Below, piece after piece: positions 12,001 to 59,678 of a stretch of DNA of 64,000 nt. Position numbers and translations under genes: made by a program. Every line of letters begins with the position of its first letter. The first letter of the stretch is position 1. The stretch lies in assembly GCF_048128805.1 (NCBI RefSeq), contig NC_135997.1:23207815-23271814 (forward strand). The letters run 5' to 3'. The stretch comes from Centroberyx gerrardi. Taxonomy: Eukaryota; Chordata; Actinopteri; Beryciformes; Berycidae. The notes under the pieces were generated by a model, which saw only the letters and a program-made list of their open reading frames with translations, was not told the DNA's origin and searched no databases.

Positions 12001-14076
12001 AAATTTTCCTTGCTCAAGTGTGAATTTTCAACAATCTGATTCATCTTTTTCATTCTAAGTGGGCAAAATATTGGGCAAATATTGTACCTTCATTTCCTGC
12101 TCCCTGTAACAATACTGACCAATCCTCCTTTCTTCGCTCTAGACCTCAACAAAACAGAAGCTAGCATTCAGCATCCATCCATACTAGTTCATACAGTGTA
12201 ACATAACAACTTAAGGACAGGCCAACATGAACATGTCATCACTTGTATCACATGTATTAACCAAATTCACGAGAATCAAATTGGATAGGAGTGTTTTTTC
12301 CTTGCTCTGCTTTCAAAAAACAGTTAAGTCAGCCAACTGCAAGACTGTTCTGTATGCCTGTCTATTGATCAGAAACTCCTAGTAGGACATTTTATTGTAA
12401 TACCTAACCTAAATATCTCACCTGGCCATGGATCACACAGGTTCTCCAGCCTCCTACAAGGAAGCCATGGGGGTTCAAAGGTCAACATCAATGACAGTCC
12501 TCCACACTCACAATCAGCAGTGACATCTAGTGGCCAATGTAGGTACCTACCTTCATATGTATTTTATCGTCATCTCACACTTGGCTTAATGTATATTTGA
12601 ATATGGTTTCAAATATTTGAACTTCTTGACATGTGCTTGATTCATTTTACTGGAATTGTAAACAGCCACACAAGTAGACATGCGCCATACAAGATGAATC
12701 CATATTCATCTTGAAGTGCTCCGTATGTGTTGAAGTAATCAGAACATATTACACTGCTATTTTTTTTTTTTTATCATATCAGTTAATCATTATATTATGA
12801 TTCATATAGGCTATATGATTCATATATCGAGATGAATCATATGGAGTATAGGAACACATGGGCATATTGGTGTGTGGATTGAGCCTTGAAATTTTGCTCA
12901 AATGTAGAGAAAATTAAAGTGAAACATTATTTTTTTCCTTGATCATATTCAACCTAATATGCTCATGCTTGCAAAAAACCTTTTCTGCATGTTTTCTGCA
13001 TGATTCTGTGTGCCTTAGATTTTGTGTGGCACAGGTTGGGAATCACTATACAGTAACTGTACGAATGAAGTAATAGCATTCATTATATCATATTGGTATC
13101 ATTGCATAGTATCTAAATATGTCATACTGTAACCACATTCAATATTGTGTCTACATACTGTTGTGCACTGTAATGTTTTATCTCTAATGCCTTACCTCTT
13201 ATCCCTGGCAAAGTTACAGATTATAGTTCTATGATATCCAATAAGGCGTACATATTACGCTCTAAATGTCTTACTGTGATCACTGGCTCTAGCTGAGAAT
13301 GCAGATGGAGTGTATGCGTCGATACCTGGTGACCAGCCAGCAGTCTCAGTGGCCGCTGTTTCAGCTGATCAAGATAACTACAAGGTGCTTTATGACTACC
13401 TTGCACAGGTGAATACTATAAGTACTTCATTCAGTCACAGCTATTTAACCACATGTTACTAAGATTTGACCATTACATTCACCTGGACAAGAAGAAGATC
13501 AGATATTGGTCACACAAGGCCAAAATCAGAGATATTTATTTTTTCATTCCTGTGTGAATCCAGTCCACTCTACACTCCCGATGGCCCAATTTGGTAATTT
13601 ATTTTTTACTATGGCTGCCTGTCATTTCCATCCCATCTCCATCTCTGTCAATACCTGCTTGGATAAAAAAAAAGGGTTTCATTGGAGGGTCTCATCTCAA
13701 CATATTGTACCTGTAGTTTCATCAAACTATTGCGGAATTACAGCAAATGAACTTTTCAGTTGTTACTCTGCAAACAAGACATTTTAGTAAAAAATTACCA
13801 AGATTTTTGTCAAGTAATTTTGTAAATTTTGCATGGAAGTTCAATGAAAATGCAGTCCTAGAAAATTTTATAACTGAAGACCTTAAGAATTCATATGCAG
13901 AGAGTTCATGAGTTTAAAAGGTGTCTTTGTTCCCTGGCTGGTCAGGAGCAGGACGAGCTGTCTGTGACCAGAGGGGACGTGGTGCAGGTGCTGGAACAAG
14001 GACATGATGGCTGGTGGACCGTAGAGAGGAACGGGCAGGCTGGACTGGTGCCAGGAAACTACCTAGCTAGAGTCTG

Positions 14077-16313: not shown

Positions 16314-22979
<6,666 letters not shown>

Positions 22980-28977: not shown

Positions 28978-29696
28978 TCACTTTCTGCTGTTTTGGATGT
29001 AGTTTTCTAAAATCTTCATCAACAACCCCGCCTCCTAAAACAGAGAATGCAAAATGAAATACACCATCAATTTCGCAGACATTTTTTCCCCTCCACAAAA
29101 CGTTTGGTTCTCACCTGATTTTTCGAGCGGCTCTCTTGCGTATCCACCTGGGCTTGCAATGCCACTCGCAAAACCTCTTGGAAAAGGTCCCCGAGCCCGT
29201 TCTGCTCCGGAGCCAAGGCAACTTCCAATGCATCGACGCCCTGCCCGTCAGCAGAAGGCAGCATGGGGCTGTCCATCACACTCTTCTTGCCCATAAAATG
29301 TCCTTCCAAATCAAAGAAAACGCTTATTAATTCTGACTTCAATTAAGTGTGAGAGGGGATGAAAACCTTTTTAGTGACAAGTATGTGGCACAAGCATCAC
29401 AACAAGTAAGGAACATGTAATCCTGTAAAAGGAAATCCAACATCTATTAAATGTGACAAATGTATAGGCATCCAATACAGATATGACCAATTGGTCTATA
29501 GTGCATATTAGATGAGAAGATGATTCTTACCTGTAGCCCAAAGGTTGCCTCTTGGATTCACTTTAATTTTTGCAACTTTATTCCTAAGCTCAGTCAAATC
29601 GAAACTTACTGCAGTGGTAAGAGATATGACAGAAAATAAGACAAGGTAAGTAAATAAACCAGACTGGCAAACATTATTCAGTGTAAACCCTCGCAT
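28978..29696 (-). CDS. nmb: Neuromedin B precursor (3 exons)
   Basis: Exons: 29531-29696, 29115-29302, 28978-29034, joining in frame to 136 residues. The start is the first ATG after the TATA box. An N-terminal signal peptide (hydrophobic LFTYLVLFSVISLTTAV, about residues 14-30) sends it to the secretory pathway. The bombesin-family peptide GNLWATGHFM is residues 50-59, followed by GKK, the amidation donor and dibasic cleavage site. Arg49 provides the upstream cleavage position. An intron splits the glycine codon within WATG-HFM, as in human NMB. The remainder is a C-terminal extension ending ILENYIQNSRK, similar to the human tail. Mature NMB acts on Gq-coupled BB1 receptors in smooth muscle contraction, feeding and endocrine control. 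Human order NMB-SEC11A matches the next gene. The exon 3 frame was chosen by phase; the alternative longer frame (28898 stop) does not match the family. Confidence 0.94.
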
Positions 29697-29781
29697 CGCA
29701 ACACGTAGTGTCGAACTGTCCTCCAGGGCGCAAATTTCCAAATGTCTCTAGTTGGTTGGGGATTGCTCAGGCGCACCCTGC

Positions 29782-33234: not shown

Positions 33235-36200
33235 TCACTCCCGATGGACCAATACAAAGAGACCCAGCATGAAGAGAACAGCATACTGGGGAAGGAAAAC
33301 AGGTGAGAATTAAATCATTTCTGAAATCACCCCATGAAAATTAGGTTAAATGAAATTAAATATGAGAGTTAAGGAAAACCTGCGAATTGGGATTGGATCA
33401 GTGGCGTCAGACTTACCTTGAATTTGGGGTAGTCGTTCATGAGAATGGTAACAATTCCAATGTATGGCACAAACCTGCAGACGAAAAGAATATTCACTGT
33501 CAGAAAGTTTCATTGATGCATAACACAGGTCGGCCTGTAACTGAATACAAATCAGAAAGAAGACACAAAGCTCATTTACTGAAAAGGTTTAAAGAATGCA
33601 ACCTTTTAGCCACAAAAATAATCTCTGTGACCAACTGGCCCGTCACTGCTGGTTGCAGCATGAGATTTAAGGGGCATCTGAAAATGTCAATGTGGCATTT
33701 ACTCTATCATCAGAGATGTGATCAGGACATCACAAAAAGTAGAAAACAATGAGGCATAAACAGGAAAACAAGAACTCCCTGTTAGAAATGAGGATGAAAT
33801 GTCATAAAACAAAAAAAAGATGAAAAAAAAAAATAGATGTCAGTTGTGCAGGATTTGCTGAGTTTGATTATGATGAAAGGTTTTCACCAATATTGTACTT
33901 GATTCATGGACCAAAGATTACCTGGAGCACTAAAACACCTTGTTTATTAGTCCAGTTTGGACGCCTCTCTCGTAAGCAATTAATTGCAGCCTCTGCAATT
34001 TGGAAATTGCAGAAGTTGATATTGCGATTTCAATTTCTTTTTCAATTAATTGTTCAGCTCTACTGGAAACCCTACAACTTGCGGTTACAGAAGGACAGGC
34101 AAAGTTATCTGTGCCATCATGGATATTTGTCAACAAAGGTCTTACCCCCTGGCTCTTCCCACCACATCTTTTTTCTCCAGCCAGTGCTGCCCCTGCTTGT
34201 ACAGCCCTCTGTCATCCACTGCATTGTTGTCCCCTTTGGTCAAGAACTTAATGTCTCCGTTCTCCCTGTGGACAAAGTATCACGATAGTTTCAGACCACA
34301 CTGTGGACCAAGGCTACTTTTTCATTGCATCTGACTGAATGAAGAATCTTTCGGCGTGTGAAATATCACACAGGCGTATCTGAACATTATTCCAGATGCC
34401 TTTTCAAAACAAGCCAATCCTACAAACAGCATTCTCAAGTTTCATAGACAGGCATGGACCCCGGTGATACAGGAAGCACTACAACACCACAAGCAACACT
34501 TTATAACAAAGTGTGCATTCATACTTTTCATGGATCTTTAGTACTCTGTGTACTATTGGGATCTCTCTGCCCTCTATCCTGAAGACGACAATCTCTCCGA
34601 CTCTGATGGGATCCTCTACCCGGTTGGTCAGAAACAGCAGGTCTCCTCTGTGGAAAGCCGGCTCCATACTCCCACTGAAATGACAAATCATTTTGTAAGA
34701 GTAGGTATCATTTTTACAGCATGGTAGATACATATTTTCAAAATTAAAAATCTTCTGTTGTCGTCACTTAGTACATTTAAAAGGAAATGTCCACCCTTGG
34801 ATACTCTTTTTTGTTGTATCCACTTTCCTTCAACCTGCCTCATCTACTTCTACTTCAGTTAGTGATTTCCTACGTTTCCCACAATGTCTTTTGACAACCT
34901 CCAGAGAACAGGCGAGAACGTGTCGCATTCAGCTGTGGGTTACATGAACAGAACAAAGTCAGCTTGACACGGAATTAGAGCTGGGCAATATATCGATATA
35001 ATATCGATATTGTGATATCAGACTAGAGATCCTCTGGGATTTTGGTTATCGTAATATTGTGATATAGCTTAAATGTTGTCTTTTCCTGGTCTTATAGGCA
35101 GCGTTACAGTTATCTTTTACAGTTATACCATTTACTTAACTCGTTTGACTGTTCTAACATTGAAATGAACAATGAATGCCTCTACCTGCCTCACCATCAT
35201 ATCCACATTAGCCTACTAATGCTTATTTCTCAAATTGTGTAAATATCTTCTGAAAACACCAATAGTCATCCCCACTCACCAGCCAAAATAATTGGAAGAC
35301 CAGTTTTCCATAAAACATTAAAGAGCTGTCACATGTTTGTTAAGCAAAACCTGCAGCGCCGTTCTTAATCTGATTATCTACTTATCGACAATTAATCATA
35401 ATTGACTGGTAATCATATTATCAAATAATAATAATTTATTAATCAAATGCTGATATTTTACCAATAATAAGTGAGTAAACGATCCAGCTAATCTAGGACA
35501 AAACTAGCAAACACTTTGGTCTCCAGTGACTGGAGTTGAGTTGTGCAGCGGACCTCTGCTCCATGTGGAGTCCAGCGAGTGAGAAGTGAAAATCTGAACT
35601 AAAAAAGATAACTGGAATAATTGGGCATGAAATGTTTGTGACTCATGTCATGTGCAAGTGATGGATTATTGCCCAATTATTATCATCTTTTTTGTTGTGG
35701 TTTAGTTGCTCACTCCACTTACCCACTGCATTCGGGGGAATCCTTACTGAGCAGAGGTACAACTCCACTCTTCAAGCACCAAAGCCTTTCTGTATTAGCT
35801 GTGTGATTTGGTGTGATTTGAAAATCACACCATTGTTTTCTTTTCACATCAAATTTGTACGTTTGGCTTCCCGTAATCATCTGACCATATGAAAACAGCA
35901 AAGACATGAATGACAGAATAACAGTATTAGGATATGAATACTACGTTATTTTAAGGTTGTAGGCTACTGTATCCTGTATGTAGGAGTGCATTGTCAGACT
36001 GAGGGCATGGGTGATGCACCCAGCCCATTTTTATAGATCACAAAAATACATAGAGAGGGATGATGCAGGGATAGCGTGAAAACAGGTGACATCTAGAAGA
36101 CCGGTATGTGATAGTTTAAATGTGGCTGTGCATTGAATGCAATTCAAAGATGAGAAAATGCATGAGACTGAGTGACTTGGCAGCTTGTCCTGTCAGGTGT

Positions 36201-46545: not shown

Positions 46546-49500
46546 CTATGTCATCTTAACATCTTTGGGAGCATCAGCAGCTTTTTGTTTAGTGGGTGTC
46601 TTGCTGCTATCCTGCTCTGATTCAGCCTTCCTGGGCAGTCTGGGGCTGCCAGCAGATTTCCTGCCAGTCTGAGGGCTGGAGGAGCCAGCGGCCATCTTGC
46701 GTTGAAGTAAGGGACTCCTGGAGCCCTTGGGCTTGGATGGCGTCATTAGAGAGTCCATGGCCTTCAGAGACCTCAGGCCCAGTAGACCACAGTAGTAGTT
46801 ACACTGGTGCTGGGAGACAAACTGCTCAAAGACCTTGGGATTCCCTGTGGCAGACAGACCCTGATACCTGCAGCAACACACAATAAGACCCAAAATGATA
46901 CAGTTGTTTCACTAAAAATGTAAATTGCCTGTAAATTGAGGTGCTATTTTCACAGTATCAATTATAACAACAACAAAATACAAATATACTAACCCTGTTG
47001 GTTTGACTGAAATTCCAACATTGGTGATCTTAGTGTCAACACCTGCAAAATAATCACATACAACAATGTTCATTTTCTGTTGTTCAGGCAAAATATTCAG
47101 ATGTGATGGACATGCATCACAAATTTAGGAGGCAGAAAAAAAAGAAAAATAATACATCATAGTTTGCTGAACACACCAGTCTTAAAATTTATCTTGGATA
47201 ACAAACTCAGTGCCTAATGGACCAGAAGGTACATAAAGATGGTGGCCTTATTGCCTTTGTAAATTAAAGTGATACGCACATCTCCCTGTTTCACTGGTGC
47301 TGGATGAGGATGGCAACATTTTTATTACAAACAACATTTCAACCTAGTTGGCCTTTGTAAGGTGTGTGACCAGACAAACTACTTTTTACGGCCTCACTGC
47401 CTCTCCGATACATGCGCCAACATGATTTTAAGGTAAATCTGATGGGCCAGGAGATTTCAGTAGTGTAAAACCACCAAGTATTCCAACAGTGCAAGAAATC
47501 CTGTGGTGTGCATCCAGTCTCATTTCTTGTGCAGAGTTAAGGTTTCCTCCTACCTTCCAGCTGAGTGAGTAGCAGATTGCCATTGGTCCACTGATGGATC
47601 CAGTGCTGCAGGGCACAGCACTTCTGCTCCACCTCAGACCCAGTCCTCATGACTAGTCTGCCTGTGTGATCCAGTAGAGAGTATTTCAGGTAGACTCCCT
47701 TCAGATCAGCCTCCACTGTGGCATGGGGGACAGTGTTCGCCGGTCGGTACATCAAGTAGACTGGAATCACCCTGTGTAACAAAGGTTGTTGTGATGTGAA
47801 TGACTTTTAGGGAGACCATATACTCAAGAGGATGTTACGTTCTTATGAAGAGTAAACTGATCCCACTCACTCCAGACATGGGCCGAAGTTTTCAATCACT
47901 CTAGCCTCTGCGGAAAAGATCTTGCAGTATTCACGAGCCAAGTTCTGTATTCTACATTCCTGTTTGCAGAACATTGGAGAATAGCCAGTTTAGATAAACA
48001 CAACCTACACCAGTACATTTTTTAATTTGCTTTTGATCAGTGGCACAGTAATCATATGGGGGTGGAGGCAATGGCACTTGACTGATTCACCTTAATACAG
48101 GATTTCAAAATTAAGAAGGGATAAATAAATTACAAAACCAAATCTTTCATTTCAGAGGAAGACAAGAAGAAGAAAGATCTTGTCTTGATGTGATATTGGT
48201 GTATTTTTTGGCTGATATACTATACTTTGCAATAACCTTGTTACATTTTTTTATTTTTATTTTGTCATATGATTCTTTTAATTCTTGCCATGCCTATTTG
48301 AAAAAGAAAAATTCCCACTCTTCCCCTGAATCCCCAACTTTTTTTTTATTTACTTACCTTCTTGGCGGTGTCCAGGTTCCTCTCTATGAGGCAGCTTTCC
48401 CCTTTGCCCCCATAGGTGATAGGGTTGCGTACTTTAATGACACATGTGTTCCCGGACTCGAACACAGGCTCCAGGCCGTAGATAACCTTCGCTCTCCAGA
48501 CTTTGTGAGAACAGCCGTCACCAATATGAGATTCCTGCATCATTATGCGGCCAAAGAATTTATTGCCCCAAACACCAGAATCGGCTACACCCTTGTTCAA
48601 CATTAGGGGTGTCATTTCGATTTCCTCTCCGACTGCATACATAAGATGAGAGTGCCAAGCCAATCAGATAAGCATTTCATGGTTTTACAGGAAGAAATTG
48701 TGTTCTAAATCTAAAAGTGATCTAAATATATAAAATCTCATCTTACCACCAAGATCCTCACGCAGGGATATTCCAGCCAGGACTGCAAAACAAGAGATAA
48801 TAAAGAATGAGACATGCTGTAGCTATTTAGTGCCACAAAAAATGTGTTATTTTACAACAAATATAAGATAAATGGGTACATACTATCGACACTAAGTAGG
48901 AAGTCTGTCGCGTCTGTCCCATGTTCATTTGTGATTGTACATCCATAAACACCACAGTCTCCGCTCGACGCCTGAACGATGGCTAGATTTACCTGCGTCT
49001 CATCTCCTGCACTGAGAAACAAACAAAAAATTTGCATAACATAAAACATCTCAGAAAATATGCAATATAATCTTTATTTTTAGTATTTGATCAATAAAGG
49101 GTTTCATTCCAAAATACAATTTTTCATATACCCTTTTCAAGCCTTGCTGGCAAAAAACTCACTATTATGTGTAAGCACTATTATGTTCATGGAATACCTT
49201 TAAAGTTATTAAGTCTTCCTAAGACCTTTGTAAAAAAAATACAATAACATTATAAAAGAAGCAATCATTTATATTTTCAGAAAATTTGGAAGTAGCAAAT
49301 AATATTATATAGCAAATAATATATATAATATTCCCAAATATTAAATTTCTTATAAAACTGAACACAATTTACACATTTACTTCAGGACTTGAGGACTTAC
49401 TTTCTTTTAATCTGAGCAATCTCCACTTCATCTCTGTACCATTTGATAGTGGAGTCACTAAGAACATTGAAGAACTGGCACCACAGTTTCAAGTGTCCCG

Positions 49501-52500
49501 AAGCATCTGAGAAGGACTCCCCCCTAATCTTACGGATAACCTGAGGAGCTGGAAGGAGAGAGAGACCCCGACAGAGACAAATAGGTTAAGATATACGCTT
49601 TCCTATGTTACACCTGTCTCTTTAATATGTTTACTACATCAGTTAAACCAATCAAGTAATCCTTCCTGGCAAGTAGCATGGGCCTTTTGCGGCAGTGCCA
49701 AAGGAAACAGCCACTGCTCATGCACATAGAGGCTCTGGGTGGCACTTCCCATAGAAGCTAGGCCAAAGAAAACTACACTTTAATGGCTCCTTTTAGGAAA
49801 TGAGATCACTTCCTCAAAGCATGGCAATAGAACAGGTGCTACTAGTAAACTACTGCTAGCAATGACTACCAGCAAAGAGTGCAGCAAAGAGTCTTCTAAA
49901 ATTACAGATTCGTTTTTCACCCTATAGTGTATGAGTTACAGTTACAGTAGCACCACATGAATACTTTCTCCCCATTAAACCCCCATTTTTAAATACTAAT
50001 GAGGCATGATGGGCGTTTTACCTTTGAATGGGTCATGCTTGTCCTTCTCTGCAGGTTTTCCCTCGGTCTTGGGGGTGTGGATCTGCTGGGCGGGCTGTTG
50101 GCTCGGTGCTGGAGTCTCAAGCGGCGTCTTCCTCCTGCTCAAGAGAGGAGAACGCCTCTCTGCTGGAGAGGTTCGCCCGCCGCTGGGCTGAACTAGAGGC
50201 GACCGTCGTGACAGGCTAGGAGACACAGAGAGGGCCGCAGGGCCTGGGGAAAGCTTGCTGCTCTGTGTAGACACTTCCTCTTTCTGGGGTTGGTTATCAG
50301 CCGGCGGTGTGGCCTCGCTGTCCTCTGTTTGGGACTTGGGTACTAAGATTTTGCGGCGGGCTCCAGAGGCCAGTTCTTGTGGGGTGGCAGAAGGAATGGG
50401 GGAAACACCATTTCTTTTCCTTAACAATGGACTTGCTTCAGGATTCAGAGGAGTTAAAGAGTCAGTCTTTGAACATTCCTCAACCATAGATAAAGAGCCC
50501 TCCTGATGGTTAAGTTGAAGATCAATCGCTTGTGTTTCAGCGCCAAGTACACTTTTTGTTGCAAATGTTTGTATATTCTGTAAACCACCCACGGTTGGTT
50601 TGTGCTCTTTATGTTGATCTAAAAGTGTGGCGGGATCTATTTCACTGCTCCTCAAATGAGTTTCACTGACGAGTTGAATTTCTGGGGTTAAATTTTGTAT
50701 TATTTCAATGTCTTTGCCATGAAAATGTTCCTCATGGTCATGCTCCAAAATCAACATTATTGAATCTTGACTGTTGGCATTTGTAGACGGCGAGAGTGTA
50801 GGATCCTTCTCTATTACTGCGGTCAGTGGTTTCCCAGGTCCTGGAGCGGTAATCACTGATGGGTTTGAACTTGGGGTAAGTATATTAGTCAATTCCTGTT
50901 TTGGAGTCATAGGCAAAAAATCTATTTGGACATTCTCAGTCCCAGAGAGGGAAACAGCAGGATCATGTTTCAGAGGAGCTGCAGTTGATGCTCCAGATTC
51001 CTGGCCAGTGTCCATGACACTGTCGTTATATTTTTCGGTACTGCTAGGTTTTGTGGTCTCTAAAGTGCTGCCTGTGTCTACGACAGAGATAGGAGGGATC
51101 ACAACAGTTGGGGAAGTTGCATTTAGGGATTGGATTTGTTTGTGATCAGTTTTAGTCAGTCTATGGCAAACTTCCAAATGTGCAGCCTTTATGTTTGCAT
51201 CAGTAGCATCAGTGCTGGTCTCCATTTTCTTGTCAAGCTTTGACTTCTTCACTTCCAGTTTACATTCTGTGTCGTCAACTCTTAATTCTTGACATTTCTC
51301 TGTAGCAGATGTAGGGGGACGTTGGTCAGCAGGGATTGGTATGGTAGTCATTGAATTTACTACTGTGGATTCAAGAGCCTTTATCTGTGATCTCAAAAGT
51401 TCAGCAATAGATATGACTTTTGGCACAGGTGTTGGGATCTCCTTGAAGCCTTTTATTTGTTGCTCAGTTAAGTTTGTCTTATGGATGCTTGTATTTTCTG
51501 GAGTTTTTGTTATATGTGGAATAATAATCTCAAGGTTAGTTGGCTTCAGATTTTGTGATTCTGAATGTTTCTCCTCTGGCCTTTTTAACACAGGTTCATT
51601 CTTCTCTGTTTCTTTATCAGATATGTCCACAATGATAATGTCACTGTTTTTTTCCACTGGCTCTTCTGTTTTAGCTTGTTCAAGCGTCTTTAGTTCAACA
51701 ATTTCAGTTTCCATCTGAACTATACATTCATTTGGGGCCACATTGTCAGCCTGTACTAATAACTTACCTAGCTCATTACCTTTTACTTTCTCATCAACTT
51801 GTATTTCTGTCCCCTCAACAGTTTTTATAGCCGTCTCAACTTGGCTTTGCTGGACGGTGGGCGAAACATTACACCCCGGGGTGTTCTCACCATCACCAGG
51901 GCTTTCGAGGGGTGACTTTTGTAGGTCTGTAAAAAGGACTGTATGGCTTTCATTTGATCCCCTGGAATGATCCCATGTGTCCTGCGTCATTTTGTCAAAG
52001 GCTGCTTGGACAGGAGTGTGCAAAGAAGGGGCCTGGTTGTCATCTGTCGCGGTCTCTCTTCCCGATGGACTCTTTTGTGGTGAATGTGCATCCATCTTAC
52101 ATTGGGTGGGTCGTGGTTCGAGGTTGACAGGTGCATCATTCCTGTTCATCTGTGTATGGGCCTGTGTAACCTTGAGGCACAATACAAGCAGAGGTATCCA
52201 TGCTGTAAATACTTATTCCCTTATCCCTGGCTATGCTGGACATGGATAAACACATGTAATTTTAAAAACAGCAACAGCGTAGCCAGCACAACAAACAAGG
52301 AATGGAATGGGAATACATTAGAAGGAAGACGCATTCAGAAATCCATGCATTATTTAATTAACAAACATGGATGGTTCAGTTAATTTCTGTGGACTTGAAC
52401 AGCTCATTTCCAAGATAGATTCCAGAGAAGAGATATATTCTGTGATGGAATCAAGAGGCACTTTCAGAACCTATTTTACTTTCAAATGAGTACTATTTCA

Positions 52501-55500
52501 TTGTTTTGCAAACATGTCTGATGCAGGATCCCTGGAAAATTACCCTGGACACCACTCAAGTGTTTACAAAGTCACTCTCCTGTTCATTTCCAGTGGAGCA
52601 GGTCCAGAAAGTGTAACTTGATTACCTCCCACATTTGTTTTTTGCATTCTTGTTTGTAGCTTTGTGGGAAACCGGTTAACAAATCTTGAGTCATAGGATT
52701 TCTTTTTTGTAATTAAGTTTTTCTTTAAATAAGCAAGCATGCAAAGAAAAAGGCCAAAAACTGCGAAGGCCATAAAATAAGTGGCAGACATCAACCAATT
52801 CACCCTCAACCCCACACCAAAGCCAGCATACTACCTAATAAAAGCCGGTTAGCAGGCTAGCTTTATGCTCCAATCATCAAATGACAAGTAGCACTCTAGT
52901 AGTACTGCAATCTGAGATACTACACAGTATTGTAATACTTCTGGTGTACTATAGAGTAAAATTACCATATGTCAGTGCTCTACAAACATGTTTCTTTAGT
53001 GTCAAATCTCCATAAAGGCCATGGTTGAGCTGAAACCCTGTTTAAATTAGCACCAGAGGCTCTAATGGACTCCCTGTGTCATGCGTCACTCGATGGATTA
53101 GATAAGACATAATATAGCTCAAGGGTCATTCTCTCTGCCTATATTCTGCCTTAATGTTCTCTCAAAAAGTAACTGCATGCTTCAGTTTGGAATACTACTT
53201 AGGCTTTAAAATCACATGCAATCTATGATGACAATACAGGAAAGAGAGTATGATGTTTGGCAGCCTAACTGAAACAAAGTCTACTGCTAATTTCCATCTA
53301 TCACAGTGCTTATAGCTAAGTCTGACATGAGCAGGCCTATTCACAAGGAAGAGGGCTATTTTAAGTTATAGTGTGGCCAGAGTGGAATGTAAATAATTTT
53401 AAGAGGTGCTTCAGCCATGCAGTGTTTTGTCTCAGCTCTTGATTCCCACAATATTCAGACAGCTGGAGTCATGATGATTGCATAAGCAGTGAACAACAAA
53501 GATTCCTAATTATAAAGCATCTAAATATCTGAGTACTAATCTGGGATCTCTGGTCACAAACTTTAGAGCCCAGAATTTATTTCCTCTTTCCATACAAGGG
53601 TGAGAATTTCTGATGTTTTCTCTGATTTTTCATTAACCTATTAGGATAGAATATATTTTAAGTTAGTTATATGCAGCCTAAGTGTTGTACCTGAAAGCTT
53701 ATCACAGTCATCCTTCAAGACATAGTTATTATGGGAAAGATACAGCAGGCACATTTAGTGCACTCTGAGTTTTCCATCTCTTAGGTCTTCATCACAACAC
53801 TATGTATTCAATTTCACTTTTAATTTAGAGGCCAATCGCTTGTTTGTGAGACCATGTACTGACACTGTCAAGAATACAGAGCGCCAAATTCTCAGTACAG
53901 GGAGCACGTTATATAAGACCTTATATAAGACTTATAATGCCAAATTGCTATCATAAGAAATGCAGCGTTGGTCTTCTCTCAGATCTTTGCACTTACGTTT
54001 AATATTAAATTTGCTGCAGGAACATACCTGTTGCATCTGCCAGTGTGTGCGTCATTTAATTCTTGTCACACAGCGGGGCATACTTGTAAAAGCTATAAAT
54101 AGCCGCAGGATGCTTGTGTTACTGATCGGGCCTGTGTTGGCAACGCAAAGCACTCATGAGCTCATGCGAACAGGGTCACTCACCTCGCTCTGCAGCGGCG
54201 GCCGAGACACAGACGCATTCTTTAGGCTGGGGCTTGTTTCCTTCTCAGACAGCTGATCTGTAGACTGTTCACATGGACGCAGAGGCAAAGCATCCTCGCT
54301 TTCCCTCTGCACGTCCGCTGACTCGAGGTCCCTGTGTGCTAAAGTTGCACCAGCGGAAGTAGTGGAGGGATGTGGACAAACTGCTACTGCTACTGAAGAC
54401 TTCTCGTCAACTTCCATGACTGTAACATCCTCTTGTTGTGTTTTAGTAATGTCCTCCTTTACTGTGCTTAAGGGTTGTTGGGGTGTTACTGCAAGACTTG
54501 ATTGCAGTTGTGTTGAGGTAACAGGAGGATTTGGGTTCAGCTTTTTCAAATTTTCGAATGTATCTTTACGTCTAACTTCCTTGTCAAGCTCTGCAGCTTG
54601 TTTACCTTTAGTTCCTGACACAGTACGATTTGTAGATGGGAGAGTAGCAGCGGATATTGGGACAGTGGGCTGTTCTTTCTGCAAAGGGACACCTACATTT
54701 CCCTCTACACATACCTTTACCTCCTCTGAAGGCATCCTATTGACAGGCAATGCTTTCTCTGCTGCTGATTTCTGACGCTGTTCTGTCACTTTTCTGGAGT
54801 CTGAATCCAAAGTTGGTGAAGTAACAGTGCTCTCTACTTCCATCACCTCTTCTAAAGTCCTCTGAGACTGTAATGGCTGTGTGGGAGCCACAGCTACGGA
54901 GGCCTCTTCATTTGCCCTTCTCTCCTCAGACACCCTCTCTGCAGGAGCCTCTACCTTCACACCCTTTGCACCATTGGAGATCTTAATCTTCTTTTTGATA
55001 AAGGGTGTTTTGGGTTGGTGTGCAGTGAAAATCTTCTGCGCAGAGTCATATATGTATGTCGAGCCATTTTCATTGACGGCCTTTCCATTGGTAATGGGAG
55101 ACACTGCTCCATTAGTGATGGGCACTGGCTTCTCCTCCGCCTCCTCCATAGTGGTCTCCTGTAGCCTGGCCTCAGTCTCAGCAGCTGCGGCCTGTTGGCT
55201 CTCCTCCGTCCCCTCGTCTTCCATGGAGCTAGGGGTGCTGAGAAAGGCTTCCATTGGGGACCGACGTTTCCTCTGTGAGCGGTCCGGACTGATGGGTCTT
55301 AGTTGGTCCTGAAGCTCAGGCCCCTGGTTTTCCTTACTCTCCAGTTCCCTGCGTTTATGCTCAGCCTTTTGTTTGAGCTTGGCAAAGTACCGCTGGTGGA
55401 TCTTGAACTCGTTCATGTCGCCCACCTCCAGAACCCCAGAGCAGGATACAATGCCTTTGTTGTTGCTGGCCGATGCCTGGTATATAGCTGCATCTTCCAC

Positions 55501-58500
55501 AGTGCAACTGAGAAGAAAAGACACTTTTAAATGACTGTTAACATTATCTCAGGCCAGTTGAATCTTGACAGAAACAAAGGTAGACAATGAGGAATGCTGC
55601 TTTGGCTTGAACACTATGTAGAGGCAAGAGGTGCTCTTTGGAAAGTGGGGTAGTTCATGTGGAGAAATGTAGATCCAAAGAATTCCAAGGCTCTGTCTCT
55701 TTTTCGAAAATTAATAAGCCTCTATTATTTTGGCTAATTCATAGCGAAAAGATTAAAATAACACATCGATGTGTTGTGGATTGTCTGCCTTCATCAGGGA
55801 GCTCTTTTTGCTATGCATTAGCCAAACTAATAAAGGCTTTTTAATTTTCAAAGAAGAAGAGTGACTTGGAATTCTTTGGATTTACATTTCTCCATAGAAA
55901 CAAATGCATTATAGGAATACAATCAAATGGCATATCAATGCTTTCAAACATACATACTTGTAAATGTGCAGGGAATGGTTTTGTCCGTTACGGAATATTT
56001 CATATTTAGGCAGTCCACAGTATCTGTCTAACTGCATGTCATCTTTATACCAAGTAACTTCAGGAGTAGGGTGTCCTAAAAAACAAAGAAGCAAACTAAC
56101 AAAACTGGAAGTGATAGCAGTGATGAGATAACAATTTGTAGATCATCTACAAAATGGCTAGCCATTTACTTTACAATGGCTTCATTGCAGTGTATTCCTA
56201 TATGCAAATTTGTAAATAAAGAACAATATTTTTCCAGTATTTCATGAAAATGTACCTGAAATATAATGTACATGAAAGTTTGTTCAGAACAATGAAAGCA
56301 CAAAGTGAACATATGTATACTAAAATAAGTACTTACAGTTCCAACACTGTTGAATAATAAATACTTTTGGTCAACCAGTTGGTTACTGGCCACAATTTAA
56401 TCATAACTTTAACATATCAGAATAACAAAACAAAATGGCATGCTAGCACTTGGTCCTATTTATTTTCTGCTGACAATATAACAGATCGCCACATACATTA
56501 TAACCTCACTCAGCACTAAATGAGACACAATATTGCATAATTTTAGTATGGAGACAGCAGGAAAGATTAGAACATTTCTCGCCAGTGCTTATGTCAGGTG
56601 TTGGAATTCTTGTTTTGGAAGTACTTATTTTAGTACATTATGTTTGTAAATTTTTCACTTCCATTATGTTATTACATACTTGTAAGCACATTATGCATTA
56701 GAGAGATTTCCATCAAGTACTTCTGGGGTATTATTATGTCCTTACAATACTTTTCTATAGCTTAATATACAGGTGAATACACTGGAATAAGGCCACTGTA
56801 AATCAAGTGTTACCACAAAATGTATCCTACAGATGCTTAGAGCAGAGTTTACCTGTAACCATACAAGTGAACTTCACATTGCAATTCTCGGACACAGCTT
56901 TTGACTTCAGCGTTGTCTCAAATGAGGGCTGCGTTTCCTCAGTTAATTGTGCCATTACACTGCAGAGTGTGCTCCTGTAAAAAAGGGGCATATAAAGTTG
57001 TTTCTCTGCAGTTTTTTTTAGGTCATTTTAGATGTATAGGATTATTCTTTAGTATAGATCAGTAGTTTTCAAAGTCTGGGTCAATTGGAAAGATTTTAAT
57101 GGGGGTCTGAATTAGAAATTGTTGCCTTCAACGGCTTAAGTTTGTGAAAGGCCAATTCTAATTTTAAATGAAGCCCTTAGCCACCAGTATACTATGTAGC
57201 CATAGCCTTCACATGCCCCTAAATGTAAGGTAGGCTGAAAAAATAAAACAGGGTAAATTCTATTATATTAGGCAACACAAATCCAGTTTGTGTCACAAGA
57301 AAAAATCTTGTGAAAAATTGGGCCACAGACCAAAAGTTTGACAACCACTGACTTCCCACTAATATCCACTCTTAACATAGTCCTCACTAAAATATGCATT
57401 ATGTGATTTATTTCAGACCACTTTGCTGAATATGATTTCCAGAGTAAACACAGGGGCTATTCAAAATTAGTACACCAGCTGAAGTGGATCACATTCAGCA
57501 AAATATCAGCGATACATTTACTTACTTTGCACCCGCACTTACAGTCAAGGTATTAGTTGATATGGATTTGTCAACAAACGCATTACAGTACCTTGCTGTC
57601 CTGTACTGAGAATACCTGTGACTTGAGCAGCTATGCAGAAAGGAAGCAAATAGAAGCAGCTCATCAGGCAAAATGCATGTTGGCCATGTTTGAACATGGC
57701 TGAAAACATTCATATGGACTATGAGCTCTCATTATACTCTATACTGTGAGGACATTTACCACCAAGCCATTTACAATTTTGTCTCTCTGAACTTGTGCTT
57801 ACTTACATATTAATAATTCAAAGCTAAACTGATTTGTTCTTTAAGGTTTGAATTCATGATATTAACTAGGATAATCAAGTCCGGCACAAACCAAGAAGGG
57901 GTCCAGTAGAGTTCGAGTTAAGACCAACACCAGAGACAGGTGAGTCTACCAAACAGTAAGCAAACCTTTCAAAATTGTTTTAAAAATAATAATAAATGCT
58001 TTTCACAGAGCACACAATAGAGGGTTCAAAGGAGAGTGTATCTTGTGATTTTTAAATACTGCAATTCAATATGAATTGGTATTAAGCCAGGCTAGGAAAC
58101 CCACAATTCTCAGAGACAAGAGCAGGACCAAAACAATTAGTTTCAGAAAGAAAAATAAAACCAACCAATTTATGACTGGAGTCAAATACTACACCCACAT
58201 CAAACCCAACATTTGCTCATAGAAGCCTCTTTAGTCCATATGAAATTCATTTACAGAAATGAGACACACGGCCATAAAAATAATGTATTCAATACAGAAT
58301 GTAGGCTATGTATTGAATCATTGTAGCATGTGGAAATGTGGCCAAAACATTGCAGAGATGAAATAATATTAACTGATTAATGCTTGCATGCATATGATAA
58401 GCGCAGAAACATTATCCGGGTGCTTGTGTATTACGTGTGGTTGATCTATGTCTGGTGTGGACATCCATTTCAGTCTTGGGTCAGTTCACATTTAAAGGAT

Positions 58501-59678
58501 ACTGTTACACTTCACTGCATATTATCCATGATTAAACAAACAAAACAAGACACTAATGCTAAAGACAGTCACTGTTTTGAACAATATAATGATATGGCTT
58601 GTAATAGTAATGCAAACAGTCATGCATTTCCTTGTGCTTGTTGGAATGCAATTTTGCTCACTTGTGAATAACACAAAAAAATAATGTACTAATTAAGCCA
58701 TGGCAATGTTACAAAGGCAACTTTTGAGGCATTATAGATGGGGAATTTTATAGGAAATTAAGACTCATAATATATTTGTTTCTTATAGTCCATCATTTTA
58801 GCCTTATAGTTTTTGTCCCATTTACCAGCTCTCATCCCCGCTGCAAGCAATGTTACCATCTCCATTGCCTCAAAATGTTGTTGATGTATCATTTTACAGT
58901 GGGAACACTCTCGACAATTTTTGGGTGACGTAGGTCCCCCAAAAAATGTTCTCATGGAACAGGCAATAAAGTGAGACACAGGGTAAAAAAAAATCTAGGT
59001 TCCTTGAAACAAGATGTTCCCTTAAGGCACTAATGCTGAGGCAACTCCTTGGGGAAAGTTGCCCCAAACATTGCCCTGTGTATTTCTACCGATAAGCAAA
59101 ATTACTGCTATGTAATTATCTGAAAAGACTGTTAGTATGCTTATTTACTGGGGTATAATTAAGAGATCATCAGAATATCTGCATGTGTAAAATACTGACA
59201 GATTCTGAATTATTGGGCCAAAACAAAACCTGAATGCCAAATTCATGTTTGTTTTTCACTGTCAAAATATAAATGCTTTCCATGCAGAAGCTGTTGTTAG
59301 TGTTTTGCTTATTGTGAAACAAGGCCTGCATAACTGAGATGGTGCTCTCAATCAGCAATTTACTTAAGCTTGGGTTACCATGGTAGCTACAAACAAAGAA
59401 AAAACACGTCATGCACTTTTGCCTCACTCTCAAGAGGAACTGTTTGGAAATCCTGTCATGTTAATGCATATACATGCTGGGCAGGACGGTCCTACAGTGG
59501 TATAGGACGGTCAATGACACATTGCGTTTATCAGGAATCTCTACCTGTTCTCTGGCCTCACATTGGAGAGGTAGCTGCAGCCACCAGCCCGGCTACTCCC
59601 ATTGACATCATCCCCATTGTACTGGCTGGATCTGCCATCGGCAGAATAGGAGCGTGTCATCATCCTCCTGGAACTCAT
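46546..59678 (-). CDS. alpk3: Alpha-kinase 3, Ig and alpha-kinase domains (13 exons)
   Basis: Exons: 59545-59678, 56853-56974, 55958-56075, 54184-55507, 50022-52170, 49401-49548, 48884-49011, 48747-48782, 48358-48632, 47871-47959, 47554-47771, 46994-47042, 46546-46867. All are in phase, giving 1703 residues. N-terminal Ig about 60-152 (C82, W94; the second Cys is replaced in AIYQASA, as in human). A long Ser/Thr/Pro/Glu-rich, probably disordered region 160-1280 comes mainly from two huge exons. The second Ig is about 1283-1375 (C1306-C1356). The alpha-kinase fold is about 1387-1630. Its zinc ligands H1564, H1617, C1619 and C1623 are present, but the DLQ/TD catalytic acids read QLE (1578-1580) and TN (1587-1588). 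ALPK3 acts at the sarcomere M-band and nucleus of cardiac and skeletal muscle, and its loss causes cardiomyopathy in human and mouse. It is the neighbour of SEC11A region genes as in human 15q25. Confidence 0.95.

Follow-up and report, generated by a model that had tools for sequence, protein, structure and literature searches.

Two acidic residues of TRPM7 count as invariant (PMC5318989, available text): D1765, described as the key catalytic aspartate, and D1775, a catalytic residue too. In the alpk3 gene of the fish Centroberyx gerrardi both positions, as well as the glutamine position Q1767 between them, are occupied by other residues. The question raised by this locus is therefore whether its alpha-kinase domain can still be a kinase and, if not, what the domain has been kept for. 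The locus was analyzed in a window of 64,000 nucleotides, the whole stretch of DNA under study, and coordinates below are positions in this window unless another contig is named. The explanation favored here, to which we give a probability of roughly 0.8, is that the gene is one of two ALPK3 duplicates and that its alpha-kinase domain is a putative pseudokinase, with a zinc-stabilized fold kept by selection after the loss of catalysis. It is drawn from the sequence of one fish genome.

The alpk3 gene lies on the minus strand and was modeled by hand from genomic sequence only. Its 13 coding exons run from 59678 to 46546 and encode 1696 amino acids in a frame free of internal stops; the 12 introns all have GT-AG ends, the borders having been chosen partly for GT-AG and phase. 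Exon 1 (59545..59678) carries the proposed start codon at 59678, and a similar exon 1 is found in a second copy of the gene on contig C4. The first Ig domain starts in exon 2 (56853..56974), continues in exon 3 (55958..56075) and ends in exon 4 (54184..55507), which also contains a long linker. Exon 5 (50022..52149) is a long linker exon that may start at 52149 or 52170; its two candidate acceptors (window 52150-52171) lie seven codons apart and a clear pyrimidine tract is found at neither. The second Ig domain starts in exon 6 (49401..49548) and ends in exon 7 (48884..49011), followed by a further linker in exon 8 (48747..48782). The kinase N-lobe is encoded by exon 9 (48358..48632), with the ATP lysine K1446 and the P-loop GCSHKV, in which His stands in for Arg, and by exon 10 (47871..47959), which contributes E1481. 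Exon 11 (47554..47771) keeps the hinge residues E1521, G1526 and K1530 and contains the zinc ligand H1557 together with Q1571 and E1573. Exon 12 (46994..47042) reads VDTKITN... and places N1581 at the position of TRPM7 D1775, while exon 13 (46546..46867) holds the end of the kinase domain, the zinc ligands H1610, C1612 and C1616 (HQCNYYC) and the C-terminal tail, with the stop codon ending at 46546. These residue numbers are seven lower than those of an earlier, sequence-only reading of the locus, an offset attributed to the alternative exon-5 acceptor at 52171, since it equals the length that this acceptor adds.

That reading had named the gene alpk3, and both the protein and its neighborhood bear the name out. 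The kinase domain matches the Pfam Alpha_kinase profile PF02816 over its full length (E 3.6e-41, 141.7 bits against a cut-off of 21.3, profile 1-185 of 185), and two I-set Ig domains lie ahead of it (E 5.4e-19 and 4.9e-07). Human ALPK2 and ALPK3 both have a SEC11-family neighbor. In the window, an open frame at 34482-34763 (minus strand) holds a sec11a exon whose match to SEC11A (7p2p, E 3.3e-29) is better than that to SEC11C (7p2q, 5.9e-25), which tells the ALPK3 block apart from the paralogous ALPK2 block. With this exon as a 51-aa query, a single match was obtained in the whole genome at E<=0.001 and no second sec11 gene was found. Further along the window there are an nmb-like open frame (29070-29747, minus strand; Bombesin match below the Pfam cut-off), tetraspanin open frames (18159-21598, minus strand; Pfam E 3.7e-10 and 6.3e-08) and the open frame of an SH3 protein (13874-14074, plus strand; Pfam E 8.3e-14), which we take to be nmb (neuromedin B), tspan3 and pstpip1, respectively. 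The human order is NMB, SEC11A, ZNF592, ALPK3 (15q25 block); among window frames of at least 58 aa, no znf592-like frame was seen between sec11a and alpk3. An identity as alpk2 was considered and rejected, given the preference for SEC11A over SEC11C, a separate alpk2 locus on contig C2 (TDMQG...LTD) and a tree of modest support. In this tree the two fish alpk3 copies group at 100/99 and are joined to human ALPK3, beside alpk2, at 86/81, a node that is below the starred level, depends on a provisional human sequence and carries a long-branch warning.

Searched with phmmer against the PDB, the alpk3 domain matches TRPM7 (1ia9, E 4.7e-06) and Dictyostelium MHCK-A (3lkm, E 0.0078), plus related chains. 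The alignments run without gaps across the catalytic motif and set Q1571 (CAG, 47563-47561), E1573 (GAA, 47557-47555) and N1581 (AAT, 47022-47020) in the columns of TRPM7 D1765, Q1767 and D1775; MHCK-A places the same three residues equally gap-free. The substitutions first noticed as Q1578, E1580 and N1588 are thus real features of the alignment. They also withstand inspection of the splice junction that runs between them: exons 11 and 12 (47771-47554 and 47042-46994, minus strand) are bordered by GT-AG sites and keep the reading frame across their junction (...LLLTQLEG / VDTKITNVGIS...), and a splice or frame mistake at this point was rejected on these grounds.

The sequence-only reading was right about these three positions, but its list was incomplete. 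The P-loop arginine is replaced by histidine in both fish alpk3 copies, as judged from an alignment with fish alpk2 and a provisional human ALPK3 only, and the residue equivalent to TRPM7 N1795 is Thr in one copy and His in the other, in a loop with gaps that makes this column less sure. The corresponding P-loop arginine of MHCK-A, R592, is described as an invariant basic residue (PMC4876393, available text). Other parts of the domain have been retained. The four predicted zinc ligands, H1557 and the HxCxxxC residues H1610, C1612 and C1616, are all present, in agreement with the intact module reported before as H1564, H1617, C1619 and C1623. The ATP lysine is also kept (K1446, equivalent to K1646 in TRPM7), and it is present in the C4 copy as well. 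PDB 4zs4, an MHCK-A chain with Ala, presumably engineered, at the position equivalent to D1765, shows the alpha-kinase fold in a structure that lacks the catalytic aspartate and could be used as a template for fish ALPK3.

How exceptional these residues are within the same animal can be seen from a scan of the genome with PF02816 (one assembly, 779 Mb, 278 contigs; all 14 first-look candidates scored), which gave at least 8 matches at at least 7 alpha-kinase genes. Besides alpk3, five genes were found: eef2k on C20 (DIQG...TD), alpk1 on C23 (DLQG...TD, with extra residues in between), trpm7 on C1 (DLQG...TD), trpm6 on C8 (DIQG...TD) and alpk2 on C2 (DMQG...TD), the names being our own assignments from their sequences and from PDB and other known relatives. 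All five share with fish ALPK3 the PF02816 fold family and the zinc module, apart from one exception seen when alpk1 is aligned; unlike fish ALPK3, which keeps none of the three residues, every one of them keeps D, Q and D. The same holds in an alignment of 11 rows, where D1765, Q1767, D1775 and N1795 are conserved in 8/8 non-ALPK3 rows (five from this fish, three from the PDB) and none of them in either fish ALPK3 row, which read Q/E/N/T and R/E/N/H. The trpm7 kinase exon (G000:C1:23768117-23768338) and alpk3 share this contig, roughly 0.5 Mb apart. This linkage agrees with the report that TRPM7 and ALPK3 share one chromosome in the bony vertebrates examined (PMC13143021, available text).

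The second alpk3 gene (G000:C4:15281452-15296113) reads RLEGVAAKLTN, that is, R, E and N at the three catalytic positions, and its HQCNYYC motif is intact. By tblastn, 11 of the 13 exons match there in order, and exon 12 was read directly; the copy was assembled from exon 9 onward, the 12-codon exon 8 being left out. With the first Ig region of ALPK3 as query (150 of 289 candidates scored), two loci match at 63-98% identity in 6 pieces, and the other 66 of the 72 matches lie at 25-38%. The C4 gene adjoins znf592-like and nmb-like frames, while the C1 gene adjoins nmb and sec11a; the name znf592 is a provisional assignment, and the N-terminal part of this frame has no Pfam match. This reciprocal pattern of neighbors is as expected of a whole-genome-duplication pair, and on sequence grounds the two genes look like duplicates.

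The kinase domains of the two copies align over 244 codons with no gap and are identical at 169 of them, with an NG86 dN of 0.19, a dS of 2.06 and a ratio of 0.09; these values are rough, as dS is about 2 and near saturation, but constraint on the protein sequence is still shown. The ratio rises to 0.27 in the C-terminal tail and to 0.21 in the 50 codons round the active site, which are less constrained. Gapless domains with a dN/dS of about 0.09 indicate that the fold stayed under selection. The loss of the catalytic residues most likely predates the duplication, judging from the two sequences: the simplest history is a loss before it, since E and N are common to both copies and the aspartate is absent from both. 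The idea of a drift of this one gene, as first proposed, is accordingly not shown, both duplicates having the same E and N and lacking the Asp.

These observations can be assembled into a coherent picture. With no catalytic aspartate, no amide partner to it, no second acid and no P-loop arginine, the fish ALPK3 domain would very probably be incapable of transferring phosphate in the way known for alpha-kinases. The retained ATP lysine, hinge Glu, G1526 and K1530 leave room for nucleotide binding; any ATP bound there would lack normal metal ligation. Catalysis would have been lost ahead of the fish genome duplication that made both copies. That the zinc module is retained in a gapless domain under selection implies that the fold matters, and, by analogy with mammals, the domain and the two Ig domains may together provide a platform on which M-band proteins of muscle dock. 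The earlier suggestion that the fold is held for binding and not for catalysis therefore fits the purifying selection in the two copies as far as the fold is concerned, its docking part being an analogy. Titin kinase has a conventional kinase fold and not that of an alpha-kinase. It resembles the ALPK3 proposed here in being described as a scaffold of the M-line, a pseudokinase without activity, as cited in the available text of PMC9698156. Mammalian ALPK3 is needed for the correct placing at the M-band of myomesins (PMC9698156, available text) and of SQSTM1 (PMC11358020, available text). The fish genes also matter, as the joint loss of alpk3a and alpk3b in zebrafish leads to vertebral malformations, with low penetrance (PMC10847475, available text).

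It had also been proposed that this fish lineage has drifted further than the human one. The human row used for the comparison is provisional, but it agrees with 8 of 8 residues named in two papers and with the length of 1907. For human ALPK3, D1774, A1776, G1777 and D1784 are named in PMC9698156 (available text), so that the earlier statement that human ALPK3 keeps DLAG and TD is borne out. At the columns of D1765, Q1767, D1775 and N1795 this human row reads D/A/D/S. The columns of G1723 and K1727 in the hinge are kept in 6 of the 6 non-ALPK3 rows that reach them; both fish copies have G and K (G1526 and K1530 in the window gene), and the human row has K and S. A BLAST alignment, with a gap of one residue, would instead pair a human Gly with fish G1526 and a Glu with K1530, and the MAFFT alignment, which gives Lys and Ser, was adopted because it agrees with the S1731 named in the available text of PMC9698156. 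The same text counts the G and K cleft residues, Q and N as missing from ALPK3 orthologues; of these four, this fish has lost Q and N alone. It numbers the lost residues G1725, K1729, Q1769 and N1797 at one place, apparently after human TRPM7, and uses the ALPK3 numbers S1731, A1776 and S1800 at another.

Mammalian and fish ALPK3 are thus alike in their two Ig domains and C-terminal alpha-kinase domain, in the zinc motif, in the gene neighborhood and in the loss at the Q1767 and N1795 positions. They differ in that the human protein keeps D1774, D1784 and the P-loop Arg, all three lost in the fish, and in that it has lost the G and K cleft residues, both present in the fish; the human Lys lies four residues ahead of S1731. 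The claim of a further drift is therefore wrong in kind, each lineage having retained what the other lacks. It is important to note that, with the provisional human sequence, only 2 of its 8 Asp columns in the kinase domain are Asp in both fish copies, so that a comparison between human and fish alone would not single out the catalytic pair. What stands out, as far as sequences can tell, is the loss at positions that are fixed in the rest of the alpha-kinase family.

Several other explanations of these residues deserve consideration. One, which we think unlikely, is that the cleft has been repurposed into a nucleotide or small-ligand sensor that switches muscle docking without catalysis, ALPK3 catalysis being perhaps unneeded since the bony-vertebrate ancestor. 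The sensor would account for the retention of the lysine, the hinge Glu, G1526 and K1530 and for the E and N newly established in the two duplicates, identical residues which could have a kept role in the site; the early release is suggested by the different residues lost in fish and mammals. Also unlikely is a parallel decay, in which each copy lost catalysis on its own once the duplication had taken place, or gene conversion from one copy overwrote the site of the other. That one copy has Gln and the other has Arg at position 1765 is in line with separate losses, and a family that was already relaxed, as the different set lost in human ALPK3 suggests, would permit them to be repeated. However, the identical E, N and P-loop His of the two copies speak for a common origin of the losses, and the high silent divergence round the site (dS 1.2) disfavors a recent conversion.

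We regard as quite improbable an active site that has been rewired by a swap of D-x-Q for Q-x-E, with E1573 taking over the metal or base duty so that phosphate or another group is still transferred. The E and N common to both copies and the retained lysine, hinge Glu, G1526 and K1530 would suit such a site, but position 1765 itself carries Gln in the window gene and Arg in the C4 gene, so no particular function can be keeping it in place, and D1775 and the P-loop Arg are also lost in both. Finally, it is hardly credible that the gene is decaying or that its model or sequence is in error, even though the model is hand-built from genomic sequence with splice sites picked for GT-AG and phase: 1696 codons without a stop in frame and the low dN/dS led to the rejection of a pseudogene, the same losses recur at an independent locus, and a single sequencing error is excluded as the cause because the change from Asp to Gln takes at least two base changes and that from Asp to the Arg codon of the C4 copy three.

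The reading of fish ALPK3 as a pseudokinase bears on a dispute over the human protein. That ALPK3 is a proposed pseudokinase scaffold, as the sequence-only reading stated, is in keeping with PMC9698156, which calls it a pseudokinase and reports very few phosphosite differences when human D1774 is changed to Ala, but it is contested by PMC11358020 (available text of both), in which the recombinant human kinase domain raised 500 phosphosites and phosphorylated SQSTM1. In the main text of the latter, as available, the control of the global kinase assay is water and the terms 'kinase-dead' and 'inactive' are absent; with such a control and no kinase-dead or inactive one named, co-purified activity is hard to exclude in this assay. 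The fish data leave the human case undecided, although, to judge from the residues of both copies, the ALPK3 of this fish cannot be assumed to be a kinase. In the texts available, literature searches returned no mention of a fish ALPK3 without the two aspartates; the orthologue alignment in Figure S1 of PMC9698156, zebrafish included, may show one.

In this sense, the fish offers a natural experiment, in which both ALPK3 genes are without the catalytic aspartate and their kinase domains are under purifying selection. Here an ALPK3 domain has been preserved, apparently with no need for canonical catalysis, and, since fish and human have each lost residues that the other keeps, the constraint on catalysis seems to have been lifted long ago. 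The putative pseudokinase is of a proposed and contested kind and bears on an open medical question. Fish ALPK3 domains may serve as a natural negative control for kinase assays, and the finding supports the view that ALPK3, a heart- and muscle-disease protein, can fulfil a scaffold function rather than an enzymatic one.
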